From a virus: 64,000 nt of DNA. The stretch is from IMG/VR virus record IMGVR_UViG_3300032334_001259, positions 1-64,000 of that record; one strand, given 5' to 3'. Positions 21,750 through 32,252 of this stretch are shown here, piece by piece; the stretch's first letter is position 1; each line of letters opens with the position of its first letter. The notes beneath the pieces were generated by a model. It had not been told where the DNA came from, made no database searches, and worked only from the letters and a program-made list of their open reading frames with translations. Both the position numbers and the translations under genes were made by a program.

Positions 21750-22763
21750 TTAAACAGTTTCTAATTTACCACAGACTTGATCACATTGGATTAATCTACC
21801 GTTTTCATAGCTATCTTTTGTCCATGCACTTTCAACGGTATTAAACCATTTTATGCACGTTTCTAAGTCATATTCATGTAAACTATTATTTTTTACTAAT
21901 GGTTTAATTTGACGATTAATAAATCCATTAAATCCTTGCTTATAAGTTAAAGGATTAAACCCCATATAACAACATGGATAAACTAATCCATTTGCAGCAA
22001 TATAAATTGAATTATGGTTTTTTGTGAAACAATCATGGTATAGACCTACAATATATGGTTTATAAGAGTAAGTTTTGTTTGGATCTTGCTGAAAGCGAAT
22101 TATATCTTCAATATTTGTAAATCCATCATGTTTACCCATAACATGAACTAATTTACCACTGCGATCAAATACTGGACCAGTATTGCGACCATGATCTATT
22201 AAACAAAATTCTTTAAATCCTAATTTTTTAGAAAGTTTTTCTGCTTCTTCAATTTGGTGTAAATTATGCTCAAAACGTATCATCTTCCAAATAGCAACAC
22301 CGCCAGCATCTATGTATGTCTTTGCATTTTGAAGTATTTTATTAAAATTTGTATCTTGACGATACAGTGCGTGAGTATCTTCTAATCCATCTAAACAAAA
22401 TTGAATTTCAGTATTTGAAAATTTACCAAGATCGTGCCAAAAATCTGCATTTCTTGCGCTGCCATTTGTACTTATATCTATTATTAATTTTGAATAACAC
22501 GATTTAAAATAATCTAATATTTGTATAGATTCTAAATTAGCAGTAAAATCACCAAAGTTTCCATTAACTAGTATGCCCCGTTGAAGTTGGTTAATAAATT
22601 GTGACGAGAATGATTTTTTAATTAAATCAAGTGATAAATTTGTTTCTTCATAACCACTATTATATGGATAACCAAATAAGTTTCTTGGACAAAGAGGACA
22701 TCTTGCATTACATAGTGAACTAAATTCCATATGTAAATGTTTAATATTTTGATAAGTTATCAT
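21750..22763 (-). CDS. Radical SAM protein with SPASM-like C-terminus
   Basis: 337 residues from ATG 22763, 4 nt after the upstream stop; the in-frame TTG at 22802 would lie within the upstream gene. CNARCPLC (about 19-26) is the [4Fe-4S] CxxxCxxC motif that cleaves S-adenosylmethionine. NGNFGD and STNGS are the following strand motifs. Cysteines at VYPCCYMG and a C-terminal CDQVCG could hold an extra cluster, as in SPASM-type enzymes that modify peptides or sugars. It is paired with a beta-hydroxylase-like gene upstream. The substrate is unknown. Confidence 0.8.
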   Translation of the reverse strand: MITYQNIKHLHMEFSSLCNARCPLCPRNLFGYPYNSGYEETNLSLDLIKKSFSSQFINQLQRGILVNGNFGDFTANLESIQILDYFKSCYSKLIIDISTNGSARNADFWHDLGKFSNTEIQFCLDGLEDTHALYRQDTNFNKILQNAKTYIDAGGVAIWKMIRFEHNLHQIEEAEKLSKKLGFKEFCLIDHGRNTGPVFDRSGKLVHVMGKHDGFTNIEDIIRFQQDPNKTYSYKPYIVGLYHDCFTKNHNSIYIAANGLVYPCCYMGFNPLTYKQGFNGFINRQIKPLVKNNSLHEYDLETCIKWFNTVESAWTKDSYENGRLIQCDQVCGKLETV

Positions 22764-22767
22764 GTTT

Positions 22768-23565
22768 TTAACAATTTTTAAGTTTTTTAATAGCATTTCC
22801 AACTGTGGTATAAAAATCTTTATTATACAAAAATTCAGTTTTAGATATTTGGCTTAATTTATTATTTGCTTTTTCAATAATTTCATCTCTATACAATAAA
22901 AAATTTTCATTAGATATTGATTTGGGATTTATAATTTCTAAATTTTTAGGAGCAAAAAGCAAGTGTAATCTTTTTTTTCTTGATGCATTAAATGCACTAT
23001 GCAACACACCCGTATTTAATTTATATAATTTTTTAGTATCATTCATCACATAAGCAGCATTACCTTCTATAAAAAAACAATCTGGAATAGTGGTAATAAT
23101 TGGTAAATGATAGGCTACAAAACTTGAATCAATATGAAAATCATACATTGTATGAGGAAACATAGTAGCACATTTGATCATACGAAAATCTATTTTAGTA
23201 ATTGCTTGAATTTCTTCTAATGTTTCTTTTATATATTGAAATTTAGTATCATCTAATATGGAAATAAAACTATCAGTATTTTTTTCATAATCAATATATT
23301 GGGTTTCATTAAAATTTTCTAAACGCTGAACTAATTCTACGACTGTCATCAATTCATCATGAATTACATCATCCAAGTCTCTTACTGGACCTTCTAATTG
23401 TTTTTTTAAAGATAAAGCAGTATCGTGTGTTTTTAAATTTATTTTTTTAGTAGATGTATATTTTTTAACTTCTTCAAGTAGTACAACAATTTGATTATGG
23501 AATTTTGTCCAATTTATATCAGAGTCTTTTAAATCAATAAAATTAGGTAATTCTGGAATGGTCAT
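22768..23565 (-). CDS. Aspartyl/asparaginyl beta-hydroxylase-like 2OG-Fe oxygenase
   Basis: 265 residues. The N-terminal 110 are charged helices. The C-terminal half carries YDFHIDS (His and Asp as iron ligands), YHLPI, a Gly-Asn turn, TGVLHSAFNASRKKRLHLLF (second iron His and the Arg that binds 2-oxoglutarate). This is the Asp_Arg_Hydrox pattern: oxidation of a residue or small molecule with 2-oxoglutarate and O2. It is co-transcribed with the radical SAM gene (4 nt apart). Codons are AT-rich (Lys, Asn, Ile), suggesting cargo DNA. The substrate cannot be inferred. Confidence 0.65.
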   Translation of the reverse strand: MTIPELPNFIDLKDSDINWTKFHNQIVVLLEEVKKYTSTKKINLKTHDTALSLKKQLEGPVRDLDDVIHDELMTVVELVQRLENFNETQYIDYEKNTDSFISILDDTKFQYIKETLEEIQAITKIDFRMIKCATMFPHTMYDFHIDSSFVAYHLPIITTIPDCFFIEGNAAYVMNDTKKLYKLNTGVLHSAFNASRKKRLHLLFAPKNLEIINPKSISNENFLLYRDEIIEKANNKLSQISKTEFLYNKDFYTTVGNAIKKLKNC

Positions 23566-23639
23566 TGTTTTTTATTTAAGATATTTTTTAAATGATAAAT
23601 TATTATATTATTGGCACATTTAGGCATAAAGGGCAATCA

Positions 23640-25340
23640 ATGAAACTACCAGAAAACGCACAGGCACAATGCGAACAATTACTAAAACAATTTAGACGAC
23701 AAATACCAGATGATGCGGCGTATAGTGACCGACTTGTTGAAGAAATAGAAATCATACTGGGTCTACGCTTTACAGAATACTTCTTACAAATCCGTGAAAT
23801 ATTAGATATGACTAATGACTTACCACACATGACACGTGGTAGTGCAGGCAGTAGTCTTGTTTGTTGGGCATTAGGTATTACAGATGTTGATCCTATAAAA
23901 TGGGATATACCACTTTCACGATTTTTAAATCCGCACCGTGATGATTTACCAGACATTGATATAGACTATCCACATTGGGCACAAACTACAGTTATGGAAC
24001 GTATATTCAAACGTTGGCCTGGTAAAAGTGCAAGAATTAGTAACTATGTTACATTTAAAGAAAAAAGTGCCAAGCGTGAAGCAGCAAGACGACTTGGTGC
24101 AAAAGGAAAATTACCTCGTAACTTCAAATACGATGATCTTGACATTGACATAGGGGAAGCTATTCGTATTGAAAAGAAGTTGCTTGGTAAGAAACGAGCC
24201 ATCAGCAAACACTGTGGTGGCATACTTGTGTTCAAGCATAATCTACCTAAAAGTCTTATAAATGCTGATAATCAAATACTATTAGACAAACATGAAGTAG
24301 AAGACCTTGAACACTTAAAAGTTGATATACTTGCTAATCGTGGATTAAGTCAACTTTATGAAATAGAACCAAATATGGGTTTAGAAGATTATCCTGATTA
24401 TGATGAAGCAACTGTAAAACTTCTTTGTAATGGTGATGTGCTAGGCGTAACACAAGGTGAATCACCAGCAATGCGGCGATTGTTTCGTGCAATACAGCCA
24501 AAGTCACGTAGTGATTGCGTATTTGCTACTGCGCTTATACGTCCTGTTGCAACTACTGGTCGCCAAAAAGCCAGTTTCTTTCACGATTGGACAGAACAGC
24601 GTTTAGAAGAAAGTATTGTTTATGAAGATGATGCTATCAAAAAGATAAGCAAACTTATTGGTTGTGATATCTATGAAGCAGATATGTATCGCCGTGCATT
24701 TGCAAAAAAGAATGAAGAAAAAGTGTATGAGTTTATGCACCGTATGGGAACACACCCAAACAAGACAGAAATTGTAGATGAACTTTATCAACTTGGAAAC
24801 TTTGGACTATGCCGTGCACATGCTGTAAATCTTGGGCGATTGATTTGGGCATTAGCATATCAAAAAGCACATAACCCAAAACCATTTTGGGCAGCATATC
24901 TTAAACACTGTGAAGGCAGTTATCGTCGTTGGGTCTATAAATGTGAAGCCAAACGTGCTGGTTGGGATTTACGTGATCTAGGTTATAATTATAGTTTGTT
25001 AAATGACCCTATATATGAATATAGAAAATATGGATGGTGGGGTGATGCCGATTTTTTACAAGGTTTTTATTGTGCTAATCAATATCTTGACCGTTTTGAA
25101 TTTGCTGGTCTTGTTGCCAATGGTCGTGTATTTAAGGGAGAAGGCGGGAAATACATTACCTTTCTTACACTCGGAATTGACAACGGAAAATATATTGACT
25201 TATTGGTCAAGGGACCAGTAGCATATCATGATTATGATGTTGTATGCGGCGTAGGTAAAGTTAAAACAAGTAATGGCAGTCAGTATATTGAATGTCAAAA
25301 TGTGCGGACATTTAAGCTAGAAAAATTTATTTCTGCTTAA
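23640..25340 (+). CDS. C-family (DnaE-like) DNA polymerase core without PHP domain
   Basis: 566 residues from ATG 23640, with GGGC upstream; an in-frame ATG at 23592 adds 16 unlikely residues. It aligns with the PolIII-alpha core: RLVEEIEIILGLRFTEYFL, TRGSAGSSLVCWALGITDVD, RFLNPHRDDLPDIDIDYP (catalytic D105 and D107), LKVDIL (third Asp, D229), a finger segment LGVTQGESPAMRRLFRAIQP, and GLCRAHAVNLGRLIWALAYQ as the Ser/His-rich finger helix. Residues 487-560 look like the OB fold. The PHP domain (first ~280 residues of bacterial DnaE) and a clamp-binding tail are missing. It is a lone plus-strand gene between minus-strand replication genes. It may be a polymerase, or a repurposed one. Confidence 0.82.
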   Translation: MKLPENAQAQCEQLLKQFRRQIPDDAAYSDRLVEEIEIILGLRFTEYFLQIREILDMTNDLPHMTRGSAGSSLVCWALGITDVDPIKWDIPLSRFLNPHRDDLPDIDIDYPHWAQTTVMERIFKRWPGKSARISNYVTFKEKSAKREAARRLGAKGKLPRNFKYDDLDIDIGEAIRIEKKLLGKKRAISKHCGGILVFKHNLPKSLINADNQILLDKHEVEDLEHLKVDILANRGLSQLYEIEPNMGLEDYPDYDEATVKLLCNGDVLGVTQGESPAMRRLFRAIQPKSRSDCVFATALIRPVATTGRQKASFFHDWTEQRLEESIVYEDDAIKKISKLIGCDIYEADMYRRAFAKKNEEKVYEFMHRMGTHPNKTEIVDELYQLGNFGLCRAHAVNLGRLIWALAYQKAHNPKPFWAAYLKHCEGSYRRWVYKCEAKRAGWDLRDLGYNYSLLNDPIYEYRKYGWWGDADFLQGFYCANQYLDRFEFAGLVANGRVFKGEGGKYITFLTLGIDNGKYIDLLVKGPVAYHDYDVVCGVGKVKTSNGSQYIECQNVRTFKLEKFISA

Positions 25341-26730
25341 GATTGTTTAACATTTGTCGTAGCGCACTGCTGTTTACATCAGCCTGTATTTTACCAGGTT
25401 GATCTTCTACCACTGCTTCTGTTGATGGCTTAACATTACTGCCACCCTTGATGCTTGCAAAGATACTACTGCTTTGTTTCTTAAATTGTTGATAATCTGG
25501 ATCTTCTGCCAAATCACGAATACGCAAACTATCAATATCAAATTCAAGTTCAATCTTCTGTCCAACACCACTACTACTACGAGTCTTCATAAGTTGTAGT
25601 TGATACTTGCCATGTTCACGCATACTACGACTTGTAAAGATACCAAACAAATTATCCGCAGTGTTAATCTTACTGATACCACCACTGATATGACTGTGGT
25701 CAAATTCAACTTCTTCTACCGATGCACGGTTTAACTGTGAAGCAGTTACAAGAAGTATGTCTAATTCTTTTGCAAAGTTACGAATTTCTTCACTGACATA
25801 CTTGTCTTTAACGAACAGATCGCTTGGACTTACTTTTGCACTTACTGGCATAAGAAGATCAAGGTAATCAATCATAACAAAGTCTACACGACGACCTGTG
25901 CGGATTTGAAGTTCTTTAATATAAGCACGAACGTCATTGATATTGCTTTGTGCTGGCATATATTTGATTTGTAATCTGCCACTTTTCTTACCAAGCATCT
26001 TAACTTTAACTTCAATATCTTCAATACTCTTAAAGATATCTCGTGACGGTGTATTGGTAAGCATACCATCAATACGCATGGCAGTAAGTTCTTCACTTAA
26101 TTCAAGTGTAATGTATACGCCATTAAGACCAGCCAATATCCAATTACATGCAATATTCTGCATGAACAATGATTTACCACTACCAGAACCACCAGCAAAG
26201 ATATTCAACTCACCACGGTTAAATCCACCAAATAACTTCTTATCAAGTGTAGTCCAACCACTACTTGTTTGACCATTATTGTCTTTAATTTTATTCAATC
26301 GTGCAATAGGATCAAGGAAATAATCAGTTCCAAGGTCTTTGGTTAAACTTATTTGTACTGCATCTTTAATAATTTTTTCAACAGGATCAAAGTCACCCTT
26401 CTCAAGCATATCTGCGGCTTTAAGAATTGCACGTTCAAGTTCTTTTTGTTTAGTAAAACCTTCAAATTCTTCCAAGAACCAACTTGTATGGTCGTCGGTC
26501 ATACCAGGTATTGGTTGGAAAGTATTGCTGGTGGCAGCATTAATTTGTTCTACTAATGGCATAATAGTATGCTTGTCACAATGTTCTTTAATGAACCTTG
26601 CAGCACTTTGTAAACTACGGTCAAAGTTGTTTGGATTGAAAATGTTTTGGACACGCACATAGCTTTGTGGATCACTTAACATCATTTCAATGAATAGTTT
26701 TTGAACTTGGGTATCATAAGATTTAGACAT
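25327..26730 (-). CDS. gp41: Replicative DNA helicase, DnaB-type
   Basis: 467 residues, matching T4 gp41 length. GGSGSGKSLFM (about 180-190) is the Walker A of the RecA-like core, VDFVMIDYLDLL is Walker B, and TASQLNRA and the Gly-rich SGGISKINTADNLFGI region fit DnaB motifs H3/H4. It unwinds the fork as a hexamer with the phage primase (27984-28982) of the same strand. The -10 box TACAAT lies 6 nt before the ATG with a weak -35, so the mRNA may be leaderless. The 3' end overlaps the DnaE-like gene on the opposite strand by 14 nt. Confidence 0.9.
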   Translation of the reverse strand: MSKSYDTQVQKLFIEMMLSDPQSYVRVQNIFNPNNFDRSLQSAARFIKEHCDKHTIMPLVEQINAATSNTFQPIPGMTDDHTSWFLEEFEGFTKQKELERAILKAADMLEKGDFDPVEKIIKDAVQISLTKDLGTDYFLDPIARLNKIKDNNGQTSSGWTTLDKKLFGGFNRGELNIFAGGSGSGKSLFMQNIACNWILAGLNGVYITLELSEELTAMRIDGMLTNTPSRDIFKSIEDIEVKVKMLGKKSGRLQIKYMPAQSNINDVRAYIKELQIRTGRRVDFVMIDYLDLLMPVSAKVSPSDLFVKDKYVSEEIRNFAKELDILLVTASQLNRASVEEVEFDHSHISGGISKINTADNLFGIFTSRSMREHGKYQLQLMKTRSSSGVGQKIELEFDIDSLRIRDLAEDPDYQQFKKQSSSIFASIKGGSNVKPSTEAVVEDQPGKIQADVNSSALRQMLNNLKQK

Positions 26731-26736
26731 AACACT

Positions 26737-26765
26737 ATTGTATCATAAAAACTTTAAATTTTCTA
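26737..26765 (-). promoter_or_regulatory. Possible sigma70 promoter for the helicase gene, leaderless layout
   Basis: TACAAT (26742-26737) with TAGAAA 17 nt upstream. The -10 box ends exactly 6 nt before the ATG, the same distance as in three stronger examples in this window. The weak -35 lowers confidence. Confidence 0.4.
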
Positions 26766-26811
26766 TTAGTTTTTTATTTAAACCGCACAATAGTAGTAGG
26801 TAAATATTACG

Positions 26812-27987
26812 ATGATTACATCTGTTGAAGGCGCAGTTTCGTATAATAATAAATTATCTTTTTTGATTGATTGGGAAATTACCTTAAAATGTAATTTGGA
26901 CTGTGGATATTGTGACAAAGGTATTTACGGTGGACATGAAAACAGTATTCCTCATCCAAATTTAGAAAAATGTTTAAAAACTTTAGATTTTTTATATGAA
27001 TATGTTGACATTTATATGCAAGCAAAGAAAAATTTACAAAGTGCCGTTTTGAATGTATATGGTGGAGAAAGTTTATATCATCCTGACATTGTTACAATTT
27101 TAAAACAAAGCAAAGAAAAACATCAAAAATATAATTGGAATTTGACAATTACTACAACTACAAATTTAATTTTAAGTCAAAAAATATTAAATCAGATATT
27201 AAATTATATAGATGAATTTACGTGTAGCTTTCATTCTGAAAACACAGACAAACAATTAGAAATTTTTAAAGAAAATTTGTTATTTTTAAAAAGCAATAAT
27301 AAAAATTTTAAAGTTGTAATTCTAATGAATCCTAAAAAATGGGAATATTGTTTAGATATGATTTCTTTTTGTCAAGAAAACAATATGAGATTTTTAATAA
27401 GACAGCTTGATCAACCATTAGCCAAAGCTCCCGATAATTATAATTCAGAACTTAAAAAAAAAGAAACTTGGTATTATAATGTTTATCTTGATCGTCCAGA
27501 AAATCATGAACCCAAATACACATATTCTCAAGAACAAATATCTTGGTTTGAAGAGGAATATAATGGTAGAAATAAAAACACTGTAACTTCTATTGACAAA
27601 AATAATAATTTAAATGAACAAGGTAGATGCTGCTGTGGTGGTCGTTTATTATCTACAAATCAAAATTATAAAAATAAAGTAAGTTTTGTTAATAACAATT
27701 TTTTTGATTGGTATTGCTCAGTAAATTATTTTTTTGTTTTTGTGAAACAAGTTACAGAAGAAATATTTGTTAATAAAGATTGTATGATGAATTTTTCTGG
27801 AAATATCGGTCCTATTGGTAATTTAAAAAATTATAATGAACTTTTAAATTTTACAAAAACAAATTTAGAAAATAAAACATTACCTGTAATAAAATGTGCC
27901 AAACAACTTTGCAGATGTGGTTTATGTGCACCAAAAGCAAAAGATAAAGAAATATACTTAAAAATTATGAACAAATATATAAATTAA
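26812..27987 (+). CDS. Radical SAM protein, lone plus-strand cargo gene
   Basis: 391 residues. CNLDCGYC (about 28-35) is the CxxxCxxC cluster motif, LNVYGGESL the conserved Gly-Gly-Glu SAM-binding strand, and TITTTTNL a further barrel strand. The C-terminus has many cysteines: QGRCCCGGRLL, DWYCSV, CAKQLCRCGLCAPKA, enough for one or two auxiliary clusters as in SPASM/twitch proteins. It is extremely AT-rich (Asn, Lys, Ile). It stands alone on the plus strand between helicase and primase and overlaps the primase stop, so it looks like an inserted moron. The substrate is unknown. Confidence 0.78.
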   Translation: MITSVEGAVSYNNKLSFLIDWEITLKCNLDCGYCDKGIYGGHENSIPHPNLEKCLKTLDFLYEYVDIYMQAKKNLQSAVLNVYGGESLYHPDIVTILKQSKEKHQKYNWNLTITTTTNLILSQKILNQILNYIDEFTCSFHSENTDKQLEIFKENLLFLKSNNKNFKVVILMNPKKWEYCLDMISFCQENNMRFLIRQLDQPLAKAPDNYNSELKKKETWYYNVYLDRPENHEPKYTYSQEQISWFEEEYNGRNKNTVTSIDKNNNLNEQGRCCCGGRLLSTNQNYKNKVSFVNNNFFDWYCSVNYFFVFVKQVTEEIFVNKDCMMNFSGNIGPIGNLKNYNELLNFTKTNLENKTLPVIKCAKQLCRCGLCAPKAKDKEIYLKIMNKYIN

Positions 27988-28982
27988 AACCATCTTTTTG
28001 TTTGTAATTTTATTTTTAAGCTAGATTGTTCAACACTACTTAAAATGCTTTTCATAGTAAATGTATGTCCATACTTGGCTACCGCATCTGCAGTATCTTT
28101 AATACCACTTTCCCAATCAGGAAATGCCACACTCCAACCATATCTTAGGGCAGCATCAACCATTGCGTGACCAGCTTTATCACGATCAGGGACAACAATA
28201 ATATCACGGTCAAGCGTTTCAATAACATCAGCTTGTATATCATTAATTTCATTACTACAAATTGCAAGTGCACCAATGGCAACTGCATCAAGTAATCCTT
28301 CAACTACAATACAGAACTTTGCGTTCTTGTGTTGTTTATCATATCCCCATATCATGTTGCTTGGATAGTTTGAAAAGTATTTGATCTTTTTCTTACCATC
28401 TTCAAATAACCGTCCACTGAAACCCATGGGCTTATTGTTCCAAGTAAATGGAACTAACACACGGTTACGCAATGCCGCATCATTAGTCCAATAAAACTCA
28501 TGCAACTTATCGCCAAAACCACGAGTATCAAGATAATTGATAGCATTTTCAAGACTGTTATAATCTGCTTCATTGATATATCCATCATTTAACCAATTTG
28601 TAATTGGACGACCAGGACAAGGATCACGTGGTTCATAGGTAGGTAACTCACGTGGTTCAACTACAACTGGCTTGGTGGTCTCTTGGCTGATAGCAAATAA
28701 TGCAAGACGACCTATAAGGTCTTCACCCATACCAAGCCAGTTCATCCAACGCCGCATTTTATAACTTAAACGACGACCAGGTTGCCAACTACAAGTGTAA
28801 TGACAATTAAAACAATGATAATTGATACCGCCTTCTGGTGTTTGATGAACGCCACCACGACCACGAGTATCGGCTTCATGTCCTAAATGCTGACAGCATG
28901 GTGCGTTAAAGCTAATCCATCCACTTGGAGTAGCTTTCTTTTTCCATGGCAAGTGTGCCAGTAGTTGGTTGGTAATTTCCAT
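27984..28982 (-). CDS. gp61: DNA primase, DnaG-type
   Basis: 332 residues, close to T4 gp61. The N-terminal zinc-binding domain has CCQHLGHEADTRGRGG and HCFNCHYTC (Cys and His ligands). The catalytic TOPRIM part shows FCIVVEGLLDAVAIGA (Glu motif) and IIVVPDRDKAGHAMVD (DxD motif). It makes RNA primers for lagging-strand synthesis with the gp41-type helicase. A consensus sigma70 promoter ends 6 nt before the ATG, so this gene is probably read from a leaderless early transcript. Confidence 0.9.
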   Translation of the reverse strand: MEITNQLLAHLPWKKKATPSGWISFNAPCCQHLGHEADTRGRGGVHQTPEGGINYHCFNCHYTCSWQPGRRLSYKMRRWMNWLGMGEDLIGRLALFAISQETTKPVVVEPRELPTYEPRDPCPGRPITNWLNDGYINEADYNSLENAINYLDTRGFGDKLHEFYWTNDAALRNRVLVPFTWNNKPMGFSGRLFEDGKKKIKYFSNYPSNMIWGYDKQHKNAKFCIVVEGLLDAVAIGALAICSNEINDIQADVIETLDRDIIVVPDRDKAGHAMVDAALRYGWSVAFPDWESGIKDTADAVAKYGHTFTMKSILSSVEQSSLKIKLQTKRWF

Positions 28983-28988
28983 TACATT

Positions 28989-29017
28989 AATATAACAGAT
29001 TTATGGTAATCTGTCAA
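28989..29017 (-). promoter_or_regulatory. Sigma70 promoter for the primase gene, leaderless layout
   Basis: TTGACA (29017-29012), 17-nt spacer, TATATT (28994-28989), then 6 nt to the ATG. One mismatch in the whole -35/-10 pair. It overlaps the stop codon end of the upstream gene. Confidence 0.78.
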
Positions 29018-29802
29018 GGACGATAATAAATGTAATTCATCTGACCGCTAATTTGGCTTACTTTAAATCTTACAGCACGATATTTGCCTTGGAAATTAAA
29101 GTAATTTGTGCCACTGACATTAGCACAGTTAGCATAACTTATTGTAGTAAAGCTGTTAGCATCAACCACACTCTTTGCGTCCAAACTTGCTTGTAACTGG
29201 ATATTGCCAGTAAAAGCATTTGCATTATATTGTACGGTCTGATAAACAGCACTACCACGAACATAATTTGCTGTCAAGAAGCTACTGCTATAAGCAACAT
29301 TTACATAGTTTGTATCGCCGTCATTACTATAGGTAAAATTGTTAGCAAGATAGCTTGAAGTAAACTGTGGATAAACACCATCGTTTATTCTAGCTTGACC
29401 CTGTGCCTGATAGTTGTCATCGCTGTAAACAATTTCTTGTTCACCACTACCATTTGTAGCAACAATGCTGTAATTATATAAACCAGCGTTTATATTATCA
29501 AGTAAACTGCCTTCAATAAGACAAGTTGCTACACCATCACGTGTATAAACAAGGTCAAGATTGCGTGAAAATACTAATTCTTTTGTAGTGCTATCAATTA
29601 AATTAAATAAAACTGTGCTTTGTAAAAGGCTCGCAGGTTTTTGGTCATTATTTTTAATAACGAACTTAAATCTATTATCTACACCTTTATAGATTTGTAA
29701 TGGTTTGGCGTAAAACAACTGATTCTCCCTGTGTAATGCAAGGTCGCTGTTCTTTACAACAGTTATAATTTGTGGATATAAATAACCTGAAATTTGCTGC
29801 AA
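29014..29802 (-). CDS. Probable virion (tail/baseplate) protein, TTG start
   Basis: 262 residues, beta-rich with many Asn, Ser, Tyr and Thr. The first half looks like an Ig-like or BppU-like domain (LQIYKGVDNRFKFVIKN, VLFNLIDSTTKELVFSR, GVATCLIEGSLLDNINAGLY). The second half has repeated Y-A-N/S-S patterns and a C-terminal strand region KYRAVRFKVSQISGQMNYIY. I place the start at TTG 29802 with AAGGG 9 nt upstream; no ATG fits. A late-type box AATAAATA is 19 nt upstream. It is separated from other structural genes by replication genes. Confidence 0.55.
   Translation of the reverse strand: MQQISGYLYPQIITVVKNSDLALHRENQLFYAKPLQIYKGVDNRFKFVIKNNDQKPASLLQSTVLFNLIDSTTKELVFSRNLDLVYTRDGVATCLIEGSLLDNINAGLYNYSIVATNGSGEQEIVYSDDNYQAQGQARINDGVYPQFTSSYLANNFTYSNDGDTNYVNVAYSSSFLTANYVRGSAVYQTVQYNANAFTGNIQLQASLDAKSVVDANSFTTISYANCANVSGTNYFNFQGKYRAVRFKVSQISGQMNYIYYRP
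29777..29784 (+). promoter_or_regulatory. Plus-strand late promoter box (TATAAATA)
   Basis: Exact late consensus on the plus strand, 44 nt before the ATG of the gene at 29829. It lies inside the 5' end of the divergent minus-strand gene. Confidence 0.5.
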
Positions 29803-29820
29803 CTAATGGACCCTTTTTAA

Positions 29821-29828
29821 TATTTATT
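29821..29828 (-). promoter_or_regulatory. Late-type promoter box (AATAAATA) for the 262-aa virion gene
   Basis: One mismatch to consensus on the minus strand, 18 nt before the TTG start. It abuts the ATG of the divergent plus-strand gene, so the two late promoters face across each other's genes. Confidence 0.45.
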
Positions 29829-30203
29829 ATGAGTTTTTCACTGGAACAAATGCTTGAACAATATCCCTTCTTAAGTTACATAAAATATCCCACTGCGGAC
29901 TTTATTGGAATTATACAAAATTTTGATGGCGACATTGTTTCCATGTATGCCTTTAATAAATTAAAAACCGAAGAAGATAAACGTGGTTTTTTAGAAGCAG
30001 CAGAAATATGGTGGTGGGAAAGTAATCGGTTGATACCAATCAATATTTTTTTAAAGCATGGTTGGGACAAATATCGTTATAGTACAGTAACACTTACAAC
30101 AAAAGATATAAGAGAGCAGTGTGGTCACATAGTAAGCATTGCAAAACTTGCAGAACGTAGAACAAAACGCAGAGTTGTTCAGTTAGTTAAACGACTCGGT
30201 TAA
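29829..30203 (+). CDS. Unknown lone plus-strand protein (124 aa)
   Basis: 124 residues from ATG 29829. An earlier in-frame ATG at 29772 would overlap the divergent gene and the late box. The protein starts MSFSLEQMLEQYPFLSYIKY, has a beta region (FIGIIQNFDGDIVSMYAFNK), a Trp-rich segment AAEIWWWESNRLIPINIF and a basic tail (LAERRTKRRVVQLVKRLG). No family was recognised. Its 3' end overlaps the end of the small DnaE-like gene by 21 nt. Confidence 0.5.
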   Translation: MSFSLEQMLEQYPFLSYIKYPTADFIGIIQNFDGDIVSMYAFNKLKTEEDKRGFLEAAEIWWWESNRLIPINIFLKHGWDKYRYSTVTLTTKDIREQCGHIVSIAKLAERRTKRRVVQLVKRLG

Positions 30204-30743
30204 CAAATTCATATGAACCATAACTAATTGTGCATAGCCATAAGCATGCGCTTTCTTAAAATAATAACCTTCATTTGGTTTAATCCAAATCTCATCAGCT
30301 ATTTCTCGCCATCGTTTTCCGATAAGGTGTCGTTTGGATGGACGAATGATTGCCAATACCATAGCCAACATATCCATTGAAGTAGGATGATGTTGTTGTA
30401 AGACATCAAAATGATTTGATAAATGAATAAGTTTGGCAACAAAATCCCTTTCTTTTAATAGTTCCCACTGTGGTTCACGTTTACAGAGTTCGTCAAGATG
30501 CTCGTTACTGCAAACTGAATTATAAACGTGAACATTTAGTAGGTCTAACTTCATATAACCTAATTCTTCTGCCGCATCATAATCAACATTGCTTAAACCA
30601 GTAAGTGGGTTTTGGGGTATGGGATTGACATAGACTCCAGTGTTGTGCTTGACAACGTTACCGTCACGGCGTATAGACGCAGGCACGTGCTTGATAAGTT
30701 TCAAGATATCCTCACGGCTTCCGAAATCTATGTCAATATCCAT
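30183..30743 (-). CDS. Mini DnaE-like protein: C-family polymerase palm motifs only
   Basis: 186 residues. It opens directly with the catalytic motif MDIDIDFGSREDILKLI (D2 and D4), then NVVKHNTGVYVNPIPQNPLT (the region of the conserved His/Gly segment), EELGYMKLDLLNVHVYNSV (third catalytic Asp, D67), MVLAIIRPSKRHLIGKRW (finger RPG-like block) and YYFKKAHAYGYAQLVMVHM (the K-SH-A-Y finger helix). All three catalytic aspartates are kept in a protein about a sixth of DnaE length, lacking PHP, thumb, HhH and OB parts. It could act as a subunit with another protein, a regulatory decoy, or a decayed gene kept by selection. It abuts the 83-aa gene. Confidence 0.68.
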   Translation of the reverse strand: MDIDIDFGSREDILKLIKHVPASIRRDGNVVKHNTGVYVNPIPQNPLTGLSNVDYDAAEELGYMKLDLLNVHVYNSVCSNEHLDELCKREPQWELLKERDFVAKLIHLSNHFDVLQQHHPTSMDMLAMVLAIIRPSKRHLIGKRWREIADEIWIKPNEGYYFKKAHAYGYAQLVMVHMNLLTESFN

Positions 30744-30995
30744 TTATGCCCATCTCATTAAAAATAAACTACGTTCTTCATCATTAATAAACCCTAACAT
30801 CGTACCGTATTGTGACCACTTTGTCAAGGAAAAATTGCACCATGCCTTAATATCTTCTTCATTCTTTACCCAGAATGATGGATCAGCGATAATAAGAAAA
30901 CTTTTGTTTATTATCAAATCAAGCGCATAGACATTATCAGATAAGTCACGAATATCTTTCAATGATGCGGTACCAACTACAAATCGTGCCGCCAT
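30744..30995 (-). CDS. Conserved small phage protein (83 aa)
   Basis: 83 residues with GTASLKDIRDLSDNVYALD, LIINKSFLIIADPSFWVKNE and WSQYGTMLGFINDEERSLF. It appears soluble and alpha/beta. It lies between the zinc-finger protein (1-nt overlap) and the mini-DnaE gene (adjacent), so a functional link with either is possible. The function is unknown. Confidence 0.5.
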   Translation of the reverse strand: MAARFVVGTASLKDIRDLSDNVYALDLIINKSFLIIADPSFWVKNEEDIKAWCNFSLTKWSQYGTMLGFINDEERSLFLMRWA

Positions 30996-31729
30996 TAGCA
31001 GCCTGCTTTTTCTAATATCTGCCTTGCAAGTTCTGCTTCTGCAGCGTGTATTTTTAATTTACGTTCCCAAAATGGTGGGTCAATCCATGGCAAAGCAAGA
31101 GTAACTTGTTCTTCGTTTAATTCACCAAGTTTTTCCATGCCAGCATCACAGCAATAAATTACCCAAGGACTAATGCGACCATGCACGATATGATTTATTA
31201 AACGACTGGTACTAATCTTCTTAAAATAATCACTAAACTCTATGGTGCCATCTTTGGTTTCTTCTGCCCAACGTTGCATTGTTTCAATACTACGTTCCAT
31301 TGCTTCATCATATTTTTCTGTTCTGACATATTCCCAAAGATATGATTCATAAATTTTATCACGTGTCCAACTATCAAGTTTGTATTTGCTTGTAAGCACG
31401 TAATCTATAAATTTATTAACATTAATTGCATCAATGGCATGGCAATGACGACCAAACTTTACAAAACCTTGATACAATGAACTGCTACAAAAATCCTCAT
31501 ATGTTTTAAGTTTAGCACTGCCTTGGGTTAATTCATAAAACCGCATCCAAGCAATATAACCAATACGCACACCCTTTTCATTCTTTTGGTTTTCACGTCT
31601 TTTTGGTTCACATTGGTGAACAACAAGACTGCTCTCACGAGTGAAAGCAAGTCCACAATGCTTGCAGACATGCTCACCAGGTTTTACCTCTTTAGCGGCT
31701 TCACGGGCAATCTTACGTAATTCGTTCAT
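30995..31729 (-). CDS. Zinc-finger phage protein (244 aa)
   Basis: 244 residues. The N-terminus has a C2H2/C2HC-type finger: HVCKHCGLAFTRESSLVVHQ followed by Cys (about 21-40), and a basic linker. The rest is helical (YIAWMRFYELTQGSAKLKTY, GFVKFGRHCHAIDAINVNKF, DSWTRDKIYESYLWEYV). Conserved-looking hydrophobic helices and the finger suggest a DNA- or RNA-binding role in replication or transcription control. It overlaps the PIG-L gene by 17 nt. Confidence 0.6.
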   Translation of the reverse strand: MNELRKIAREAAKEVKPGEHVCKHCGLAFTRESSLVVHQCEPKRRENQKNEKGVRIGYIAWMRFYELTQGSAKLKTYEDFCSSSLYQGFVKFGRHCHAIDAINVNKFIDYVLTSKYKLDSWTRDKIYESYLWEYVRTEKYDEAMERSIETMQRWAEETKDGTIEFSDYFKKISTSRLINHIVHGRISPWVIYCCDAGMEKLGELNEEQVTLALPWIDPPFWERKLKIHAAEAELARQILEKAGC

Positions 31730-32252
31730 TTAATAATGATTTAGCTTCTTCTGTAATATAATACTTAAATCTGCTGTTGTCAAATCCTAATATCACATCT
31801 TTATGTAGTGGCAATTCATGAACATTGTATGGTTCTGTGTGAATAATTTCATTATAATATTGTGGAAAATTACCAAAATACACTTTTGGTTTTGCAATAT
31901 GTGTTATAGATTCATTAATAAATTTATGATGCAAGTGACCATACTCGCCAAGGTGATTGTGTGTTAATACAAAATCATGTTGACTGCAATGATACTGTAA
32001 AAATTTTTGCGCATCTTCACCATCAAAACCTAATTCATTATTTTTTACAAATTTCCAATCATCAGTAAAACCACCAAATTGTGTTTCAATTCCATATTTG
32101 TTCCAGAAATTTTTCATTTCAATAGCACGTGGATCATTAGAATTGTATGTAAGATAAACAATCTTCCAATTAAAATGCTGATACTTTCTTATAAATCCCC
32201 AAGCAAATATTACACAATCATCAGGGTGAGCAACTAAACAAACTGCTTTCAT
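31713..32252 (-). CDS. PIG-L/LmbE-family deacetylase
   Basis: 179 residues. VAHPDDCVIFAWGF holds the AHPDD zinc-binding motif and THNHLGEYGHLHHKFINE the distal His-rich motif (H-x-x-H) of the N-acetylglucosaminyl deacetylase family. Such enzymes remove acetyl from GlcNAc-type groups in glycans or thiols. It overlaps the DUF6492-like glycosyltransferase gene by 4 nt, so the two likely act on the same sugar structure. The family core is slightly short compared with the usual 220-250 residues. Confidence 0.75.
   Translation of the reverse strand: MKAVCLVAHPDDCVIFAWGFIRKYQHFNWKIVYLTYNSNDPRAIEMKNFWNKYGIETQFGGFTDDWKFVKNNELGFDGEDAQKFLQYHCSQHDFVLTHNHLGEYGHLHHKFINESITHIAKPKVYFGNFPQYYNEIIHTEPYNVHELPLHKDVILGFDNSRFKYYITEEAKSLLNERIT

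Follow-up and report, generated by a model that had tools for sequence, protein, structure and literature searches.

Family C polymerases of jumbo phages

The split minimal PolIII-alpha of group 2.2 jumbo phages has already been described (Iyer et al. 2021, Viruses 13:63, PMC7824862). According to the accessible text of that study, its two chains are encoded by distant genes, the N chain binding the nucleotide and the C chain the metal and the template; the genomes carry a family B polymerase, gp41, gp61 and a clamp loader alongside, and phages with the split version have no other PolIII domains (PMC7824862). In the accessible parts of two genome reports the N-half is described as a truncated PolIII-alpha for phage CBB (PMC5259590) and as a PolIII-alpha subunit for Atu_ph07 (PMC6102473), and the available portion of a marine survey places PF07733 in 51.9% of one jumbo-phage cluster (PMC9123017). 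The present analysis concerns two genes for family C (DnaE-like) proteins, of 566 and 186 residues, in the window, that is, bases 1-64,000 of a 338,435-base virus record (IMG/VR IMGVR_UViG_3300032334_001259). The 186-residue protein is assigned to the split enzyme, while the 566-residue protein is a second, one-piece family C polymerase as judged from its sequence and model, and it is in this second enzyme that the genome differs from the group as presented in the accessible text of Iyer et al. (PMC7824862). It is probable that two independent family C enzymes, a split pair and an optional, helicase-linked one-piece enzyme, accompany a normal family B replicase in this phage.

The polymerase genes are as follows.

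23640-25340, plus strand: predicted one-piece DnaE-like polymerase, 566 residues, supported by PF07733, PF17657, conserved columns, AlphaFold2 model, fold match and the ratio of nonsynonymous to synonymous substitution rates (dN/dS); palm with Gly-Ser loop, small thumb, fingers and C-terminal oligonucleotide-binding (OB) fold, without PHP; putative catalytic residues D105, D107 and D229 (566-residue numbering).
30183-30743, minus strand: predicted C-half of the split minimal PolIII-alpha, 186 residues, supported by phrog_11778, model, fold match and conserved columns; putative catalytic residues D2, D4 and D67, reduced fingers, no thumb.
257,441-257,956 of the record, minus strand: predicted N-half of the split enzyme, 171 residues, GTG start, supported by PF07733 and phrog_11127.
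222,419-225,082 of the record, outside the window: family B polymerase, 887 residues, supported by PF00136 and PF03104.

A new member of the split minimal PolIII-alpha

An original prediction for the window had proposed two family C proteins without PHP domains. Both frames were confirmed, the longer by PF07733 and PF17657 and the shorter by phrog_11778 ('DNA polymerase', E 1e-60 over nearly its whole length) together with its fold. Profile matches to DnaE had been expected for each, and this held for the 566-residue protein only, since Pfam, NCBIfam and single-sequence PDB searches with the 186-residue protein gave no match. Its AlphaFold2 model, built from a 41-row alignment, has a predicted local distance difference test score (pLDDT) of 93.2, and the first 16 PDB matches returned by Foldseek were all PolIII-alpha or PolC (best E 3.6e-4). 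With VIA-align, 183 of the 186 residues were placed on residues 401-780 of Escherichia coli PolIII-alpha (Z 9.2, root mean square deviation 4.0), a span that the C-half covers with about half the residues; PolC gave Z 9.1-9.2 and the first unrelated row Z 3.3. In profile alignments of weak sequence score, D2 and D4 pair with D401 and D403, K65 and D67 with K553 and D555, and the K-x-H-x-x-x-Y stretch with 758-764. The functional roles of D401, D403, K553, D555 and the Gly-Ser positions, and the E. coli numbering of the clamp-binding and thumb regions, are those that we take to be established. The one-piece enzyme of phage LR756508, along whose length both half-profiles match collinearly, served as a yardstick: by profile positions the C-half has about 64 residues fewer between the DIDID and K-x-D motifs, in the thumb region, and about 64 fewer in the fingers. 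The three catalytic aspartates and the K-x-H-A-Y element that the original prediction had picked out are present and conserved. Sequence and model together identify the 186-residue protein as the predicted C-terminal half of a minimal PolIII-alpha.

The putative partner is encoded elsewhere. A PF07733 search of the whole record returned a third place, 257,429-257,599 on the minus strand, inside a 171-residue open reading frame (ORF; PF07733 E 2.7e-8, phrog_11127 E 3.4e-38). This ORF has the C-terminal stretch GVGRGSS...EFMR and ends ...GVGRGSSVASFVLYLIGVHRIHSLRNNLEFAEFMR, followed by TAA. The N-half profile aligns with E. coli PolIII-alpha up to residue 393 and the C-half begins at the equivalent of residue 400, so that the junction of the two proteins would fall within the active site, with the Gly-Ser loop on one side and the aspartates on the other. 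Their genes are separated by about 227 kb along the record; in a circular genome the shorter path between them would be about 111 kb. The suggestion of a split polymerase was thus right for the 186-residue protein and wrong as to its partner, which is this third gene and not the 566-residue protein.

The two halves occur together in nearly all of the phage records compared. A tblastn search with the C-half found 63 phage records, each covering at least 80% of the query, among them the cultured phages RaK2, GAP32, 121Q, PA5oct and Paride. The N-half gave 444 records at E up to 10; among the best 60 by coverage times identity, 58 were strong (E 7e-13 or better) and two weak. A strong N-half was present in 58 of the 60 best C-half records, and a C-half in every one of the 58 strong N-half records listed. 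In CM1 the N-half was detected by profile, making it the 59th, and the one remaining record is a 109-kb fragment outside the profile search. This count leaves out three of the 63 C-half records, including Alishewanella phage Slickus01 (OQ508957, 68379-68840; record of 141.6 kb), whose C-half ranks lowest in the phage collection at 33.5% identity. Both halves were found in 12 of the 16 records searched by profile.

Conservation and selection point in the same direction. Residues D2, D4, D6, H33, K65 and D67 are kept in 113/113 unique C-halves, R134, P135 and K137 in 112/112, the finger histidine in 111/111, and GRGS in 99/99 unique N-halves. The same residues are invariant in alignments A1 (18 rows) and A2 (20 rows), which are the fairer evidence for DIDID and GRGS because they include named phages found by tblastn and not by pattern. 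Pairwise dN/dS is 0.09-0.25 for the C-half (six pairs) and 0.08-0.19 for the N-half (three pairs). No natural fusion of the halves occurs in 289 loci, many of them redundant (0/148 C-half ORFs, 0/114 N-half ORFs), and the 114 N-half ORFs end 0 (106 cases), 1 (7) or 2 (1) residues past the domain.

Homology, exact complementarity, joint occurrence, conserved residues and selection, all derived from sequence and fold, indicate that the 186- and 171-residue proteins are the two chains of one minimal PolIII-alpha. The pair fits the published description point by point, in its two chains from distant genes and in the division into a nucleotide-binding N and a metal- and template-binding C chain, and is thus a predicted new member of the group. 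The accessible text of Iyer et al. likewise infers that the two chains form one active enzyme; the count-based results given here (no fused form, fixed cut site) were not met in that text (PMC7824862). Its statement that such phages have no other PolIII domains describes a correlate of the group and not a part of the enzyme, and membership of the pair stands.

Two other ways of joining the halves were rejected. One was an intein-split enzyme: judged by their lengths and ends, no intein was seen in either half, and the intein-bearing split family B polymerase of phage MIJ3 is another gene, according to the accessible part of its description (PMC6892783). Stop-codon readthrough from the 83-residue ORF preceding the C-half (30744-30995) was rejected because in relatives this ORF is at a variable distance from the C-half or undetected, and because the real N-half, with its GRGSS...F end, is encoded elsewhere.

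A one-piece enzyme beside the replicative helicase

The frame at 23592-25340 on the plus strand is open for 582 residues, and an internal ATG at 23640 gives 566. The shorter length is preferred because the conserved columns of homologues begin at the 23640 start. The protein matches PF07733 (E 1.2e-40) and PF17657 (E 8.8e-15); no Pfam PHP family was detected in it, and its fold match begins at E. coli residue 284 or later. In an alignment of 34 rows, RGS, D105, D107, D109, K227 and D229 are among the invariant columns, and the Gly-Ser loop (RGSAGSS), PDIDID, K227-x-D229 and the finger motifs are invariant or nearly so. The AlphaFold2 model (pLDDT 82.4, weak at 307-323) aligns with solved PolIII-alpha structures over 436-531 residues at Z 28-34 in the best five rows, including Taq PolIII-alpha (Z 31.6 over 510 residues, with residues 6-558 placed on 300-1121). 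Structure prediction, which had been proposed for each piece, therefore returned PolIII-alpha folds for both (Z 9.2 and Z 28-34), and the OB-like end noticed earlier was borne out, residues 482-559 alone resembling single-strand-binding OB folds (Z about 8).

Like bacterial DnaE1, DnaE2 and DnaE3, the 566-residue protein has a palm, thumb, fingers and OB fold that align with solved PolIII-alpha. It differs from them in lacking PHP; the clamp-binding (helix-hairpin-helix) and tau-binding regions also appear to be missing, because only about 15 residues lie between the end of the fingers and the OB fold. The accessible text of a 2026 survey calls PHP universally present in family C polymerases (PMC12926913). 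Identity to any of the best 80 bacterial loci kept is at most 34%. Sequence and model thus describe a separate, full palm-thumb-fingers-OB DnaE, and from this anatomy polymerase activity is very likely. The enzyme is under strong purifying selection, with dN/dS of 0.034-0.060 in comparisons with six close relatives, saturation having been reached in three pairs of greater distance.

In IMG/VR at least 592 stretches match the one-piece enzyme, of which the best 80 were kept; 78 of these are new loci. The gene lies tail to tail with that of the helicase, which by the T4 names that we assume for the genes here is called gp41:

25327-26730, minus strand: gp41-type (DnaB-like) replicative helicase, supported by PF03796 and phrog_19.

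A gp41 gene is found within 2.8 kb of the one-piece gene (median 784 bases) in 76 of the 78 loci, downstream on the opposite strand in 39 and upstream on the same strand in 37; the remaining two loci have at most 300 bases between the gene and the contig end. This association in two orientations suggests that the one-piece gene has kept its place by the helicase. Its presence is nevertheless patchy: it is absent from 12 of the 22 C-half loci with room for it and from all nine named split-enzyme phages (0/9), which makes it an accessory, dispensable gene. A remnant of about 95 codons from the 3' end of a one-piece gene was seen beside gp41 at L024:14906-15196 (the same contig as L102), a sign of loss.

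Among the 60 records listed of 1185 in the phage collection, the only relative above 35% identity is that of the uncultured phage LR756508 (484 kb). It is likewise a one-piece, PHP-less DnaE (574 residues, 37-38% identity over the full length) in a genome with a family B polymerase. The LR756508 genome differs in having neither split half, and its one-piece gene stands in another neighbourhood, close (by eye) to a gene for an EF-G-like translation factor (L118:10235-12280). Family C polymerases are also present in Streptomyces phages Caliburn and Targaryen, Pseudomonas phage PA5 and Corynebacterium phage P1201, which belong to other phage groups and reach at most about 30% identity; the DnaE of PA5 and of P1201 has two entries each, i.e. 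it is encoded as two proteins.

It might be supposed that the 566- and 186-residue proteins are themselves the two subunits of one split polymerase. Their genes are within 7 kb of each other in one locus beside helicase and primase, and 11 of the 12 contigs carrying the one-piece gene also carry the C-half. In spite of this, the proposal is very improbable. The 566-residue protein already has every part of the 186-residue protein and a thumb in addition; a matching N-half exists elsewhere, and named phages without the 566-residue protein have this half as well as the C-half, which refutes the simple form; the two proteins fall in separate clades; and the one-piece gene is missing from more than half of the C-half loci where it could have been seen.

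A family B replicase and the case for three polymerases

The original prediction had noted that the family B polymerase expected of a T4-like phage (gp43) is missing. This is true of the window. An intact family B polymerase is encoded elsewhere in the genome, at 222,419-225,082 (PF00136 E 9.1e-38; exonuclease PF03104 E 2.7e-17), and neither the absence of gp43 from the phage nor its implied replacement can be upheld. The protein has the DIET, SLYPS, NSLYG and YGDTDS motifs, under the names that we presume to be usual. The presence of a complete family B polymerase makes the phage T4-like in its replicase. By profile search, a family B polymerase is also present in all 11 both-half records of at least 280 kb (the present genome, one 322-kb contig, RaK2, Phosso, Atu_ph07, Paride, SCTP-2, CM1, Vibrio 2.275.O, GAP32 and XacN1); none was detected in the twelfth both-half record, a 130-kb fragment. 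The T4 clamp profile (gp45, PF02916) had no match and was equally silent in the control, so nothing is concluded from it.

Several observations weigh against the reading of two independent family C enzymes beside a family B replicase. At the sequence level the C-half matches no solved PolIII-alpha significantly (best profile E 0.02, none for the sequence alone), and its Foldseek template modelling (TM) score normalised by query is 0.38-0.47, the full-length match coming from VIA-align only. The counts for D2, D4, D6 and GRGS are partly circular, as DIDID and GRGS served as search patterns for many rows. Of 125 C-half loci, 22 include gp41 and extend past it by 2.5 kb or more; the one-piece gene is present in nine of these, reduced to a 3' remnant in one and absent from 12. 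Finally, 12 further contigs with the one-piece gene showed no family B polymerase, each being a fragment of at most 183 kb; the three-polymerase set is therefore displayed in one genome only. The wider proposal, that widespread environmental giant phages have a replisome with three unlike polymerases (a proofreading family B enzyme, a two-subunit PolIII-alpha, and an optional gp41-tied one-piece enzyme without PHP that would extend primers or bypass lesions), is put forward as a tentative possibility.

The combination of one-piece enzyme and split pair, the gp41 link of the former and its patchy presence appear to be new. In the open-licence literature, which omits most subscription papers, no account pairing the split enzyme with a one-piece DnaE was found. 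To our knowledge, cells are not known to divide labour in this way between enzymes of families B and C. A second family C polymerase beside gp41 in a family B genome bears on how unrelated polymerases share work in one replisome.

A decoy or inhibitor of host PolIII had also been suggested. The family C origin of the proteins, shared with the host replicase, would suit such a role. The catalytic residues are kept in all rows, both proteins are under purifying selection and the genes lie within the phage replication block; moreover, the host-facing binding parts (tau, beta, epsilon) are undetected by Pfam and fold, and without beta- and tau-binding parts a decoy would lack what it needs. The suggestion is accordingly given hardly any weight.

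Relationships of the one-piece enzyme

In a tree of 44 rows, nine split and eight one-piece enzymes form two separate clades, each with support of 100/100. Two planctomycete DnaEs are the neighbours of the one-piece clade (100/99), and the wider group (99/95) also contains Bacteroidota DnaEs and a DnaE2; support for the placement of the DnaE2 itself is 90/50. This DnaE2 (L442) is a true member by NCBIfam (1356.6 bits, cut-off 939). The one-piece and planctomycete enzymes share the stretch RGSAG-SLVC-LGITDVDP. No origin is claimed, and the bacterial relationship suggested by the sequences is treated as a lead only, given a bootstrap that had not converged, a very long branch (3.87) to the split enzymes, and a bacterial sample drawn from the one-piece enzyme's own hits (24 of its 80 best matches). 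Rows from Caliburn, Targaryen and SA 1306 Kay group with neither enzyme.

In the planctomycete PolIII-alpha homologues L368, L370, L371 and L372, LRGSAG replaces GRGSA in the Gly-Ser loop. The one that was tested, L371, has a PHP match. Two planctomycete rows scanned were below the NCBIfam equivalog cut-offs, perhaps representing an unnamed DnaE group.

The tree raises the question of whether the one-piece enzyme is a lesion-bypass polymerase of the DnaE2/ImuC type, copying damaged phage DNA or DNA attacked by the host. It groups with non-canonical bacterial DnaEs, including in the wider group one DnaE2 above its NCBIfam cut-off. It lacks PHP, and no separate DnaQ-like exonuclease (PF00929) was found in the genome by search, so that it would have no proofreading of its own; its gene, as noted above, is dispensable. 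Against this, the error-prone model NF004225 (DnaE2) scores 159.6 bits (cut-off 939), no better than the general PolIII-alpha NCBIfam model (168 bits), both far below cut-off, in a test that is harsh on a short protein because the full-length model covers PHP and other parts absent here. The placement beside the DnaE2 row is subject to the support and sampling given above. A search for a Y-family polymerase (PF00817, ImuB-like) gave no match in the genome, and no search was made for ImuA. The constant link with gp41 would suit work at the fork equally well. On balance a bypass enzyme of the DnaE2/ImuC type is less likely than not.

Proposed roles of the polymerases

Most likely the family B polymerase would replicate the genome, the split mini-enzyme acting as a conserved accessory polymerase. 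In the latter, the N chain would bring the G-x-GRGS loop that holds the deoxynucleoside triphosphate (dNTP), and the C chain the three metal-binding aspartates and the finger helices. With the break placed between positions equivalent to 393 and 400 of the E. coli enzyme, a working active site could form only when the chains come together. Assembly would proceed without covalent joining, in keeping with the lack of an intein, and the assembled pair would carry out nucleotidyl transfer. Lacking thumb, PHP, clamp-binding region and OB fold, the pair would be expected to have low processivity and to work together with partners, probably the clamp loader and the primosome. Indeed, the setting for such partners would be provided by the position of the C-half gene beside primase and helicase and of the N-half gene beside the clamp loader.

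The same reduction could indicate that the split mini-enzyme is another kind of nucleotidyltransferase, for example one that tails ends or tags primers, or a structural part of the replisome, and not a DNA polymerase. It has no thumb for a primer-template, some 357 residues in all and reduced fingers. The dNTP-site and metal-site residues and those of the finger K-x-H and R-P motifs are all kept, which would be needless in a purely structural role. A function other than DNA polymerisation is regarded as unlikely, and an accessory polymerase remains the preferred reading. With about 357 residues in two chains, the pair would be about the smallest family C polymerase that we know of, and a natural test of what PolIII-alpha needs when thumb, PHP and clamp-binding parts are absent. 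Cultured phages carry it, which puts its function within immediate reach of experiment.

The 566-residue enzyme would most likely be an optional accessory polymerase at the fork, working before the family B enzyme takes over. Going by gene position and anatomy only, its task may be primer extension or lesion bypass.

Gene neighbourhoods

The remaining genes around the C-half are as follows.

27984-28982, minus strand: gp61-type DNA primase (phrog_47), in a conserved position between the C-half and gp41.
29772-30203, plus strand: phrog_11637 protein, a conserved neighbour on the opposite strand that overlaps the 3' end of the C-half.
30744-30995, minus strand: ORF of 83 residues, a separate gene, with its TAA directly before the C-half ATG in the same frame.
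30995-31729, minus strand: phrog_11058 protein with a C2H2-like zinc motif (PF00096, below cut-off), a conserved upstream neighbour of the C-half.

The order of the C-half block is fixed: phrog_11058, a small ORF, the C-half, phrog_11637 on the other strand, a structural-protein-like gene, gp61 and gp41. The block is much less complete in XacN1 and CM1, and an exonuclease gene is found near the C-half in relatives. Elsewhere in the genome the N-half is followed by phrog_14844, a GroES-like protein and the gp44 clamp loader, the last seen at 19/19 N-half loci (L054-L072). The GroES-like/head morphogenesis protein between N-half and gp44 (L050:6622-7011, minus strand) is conserved in most split-enzyme phages viewed.

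PADLOC gave one weak, irrelevant match and otherwise no defence match. The ORF at 31713-32252 (minus strand, 179 residues) has an AHPDD start and a later HxxH, resembles by eye the PIG-L/LmbE deacetylases and has no strong PHROG match. Between gp41 and gp61, 26812-27987 (plus strand) encodes a radical-SAM-like protein (CxxxCxxC, by eye) that is kept in this place only in a near-identical contig and has weak matches elsewhere in two other contigs. Upstream of the one-piece gene, 22768-23565 (minus strand, 265 residues) shows by eye a His/Asp pattern recalling aspartyl/asparaginyl hydroxylases. A second radical-SAM-like gene (CxxxCxxC, by eye), at 21750-22802 on the minus strand, is a common neighbour in relatives on the far side of the one-piece DnaE and gp41.

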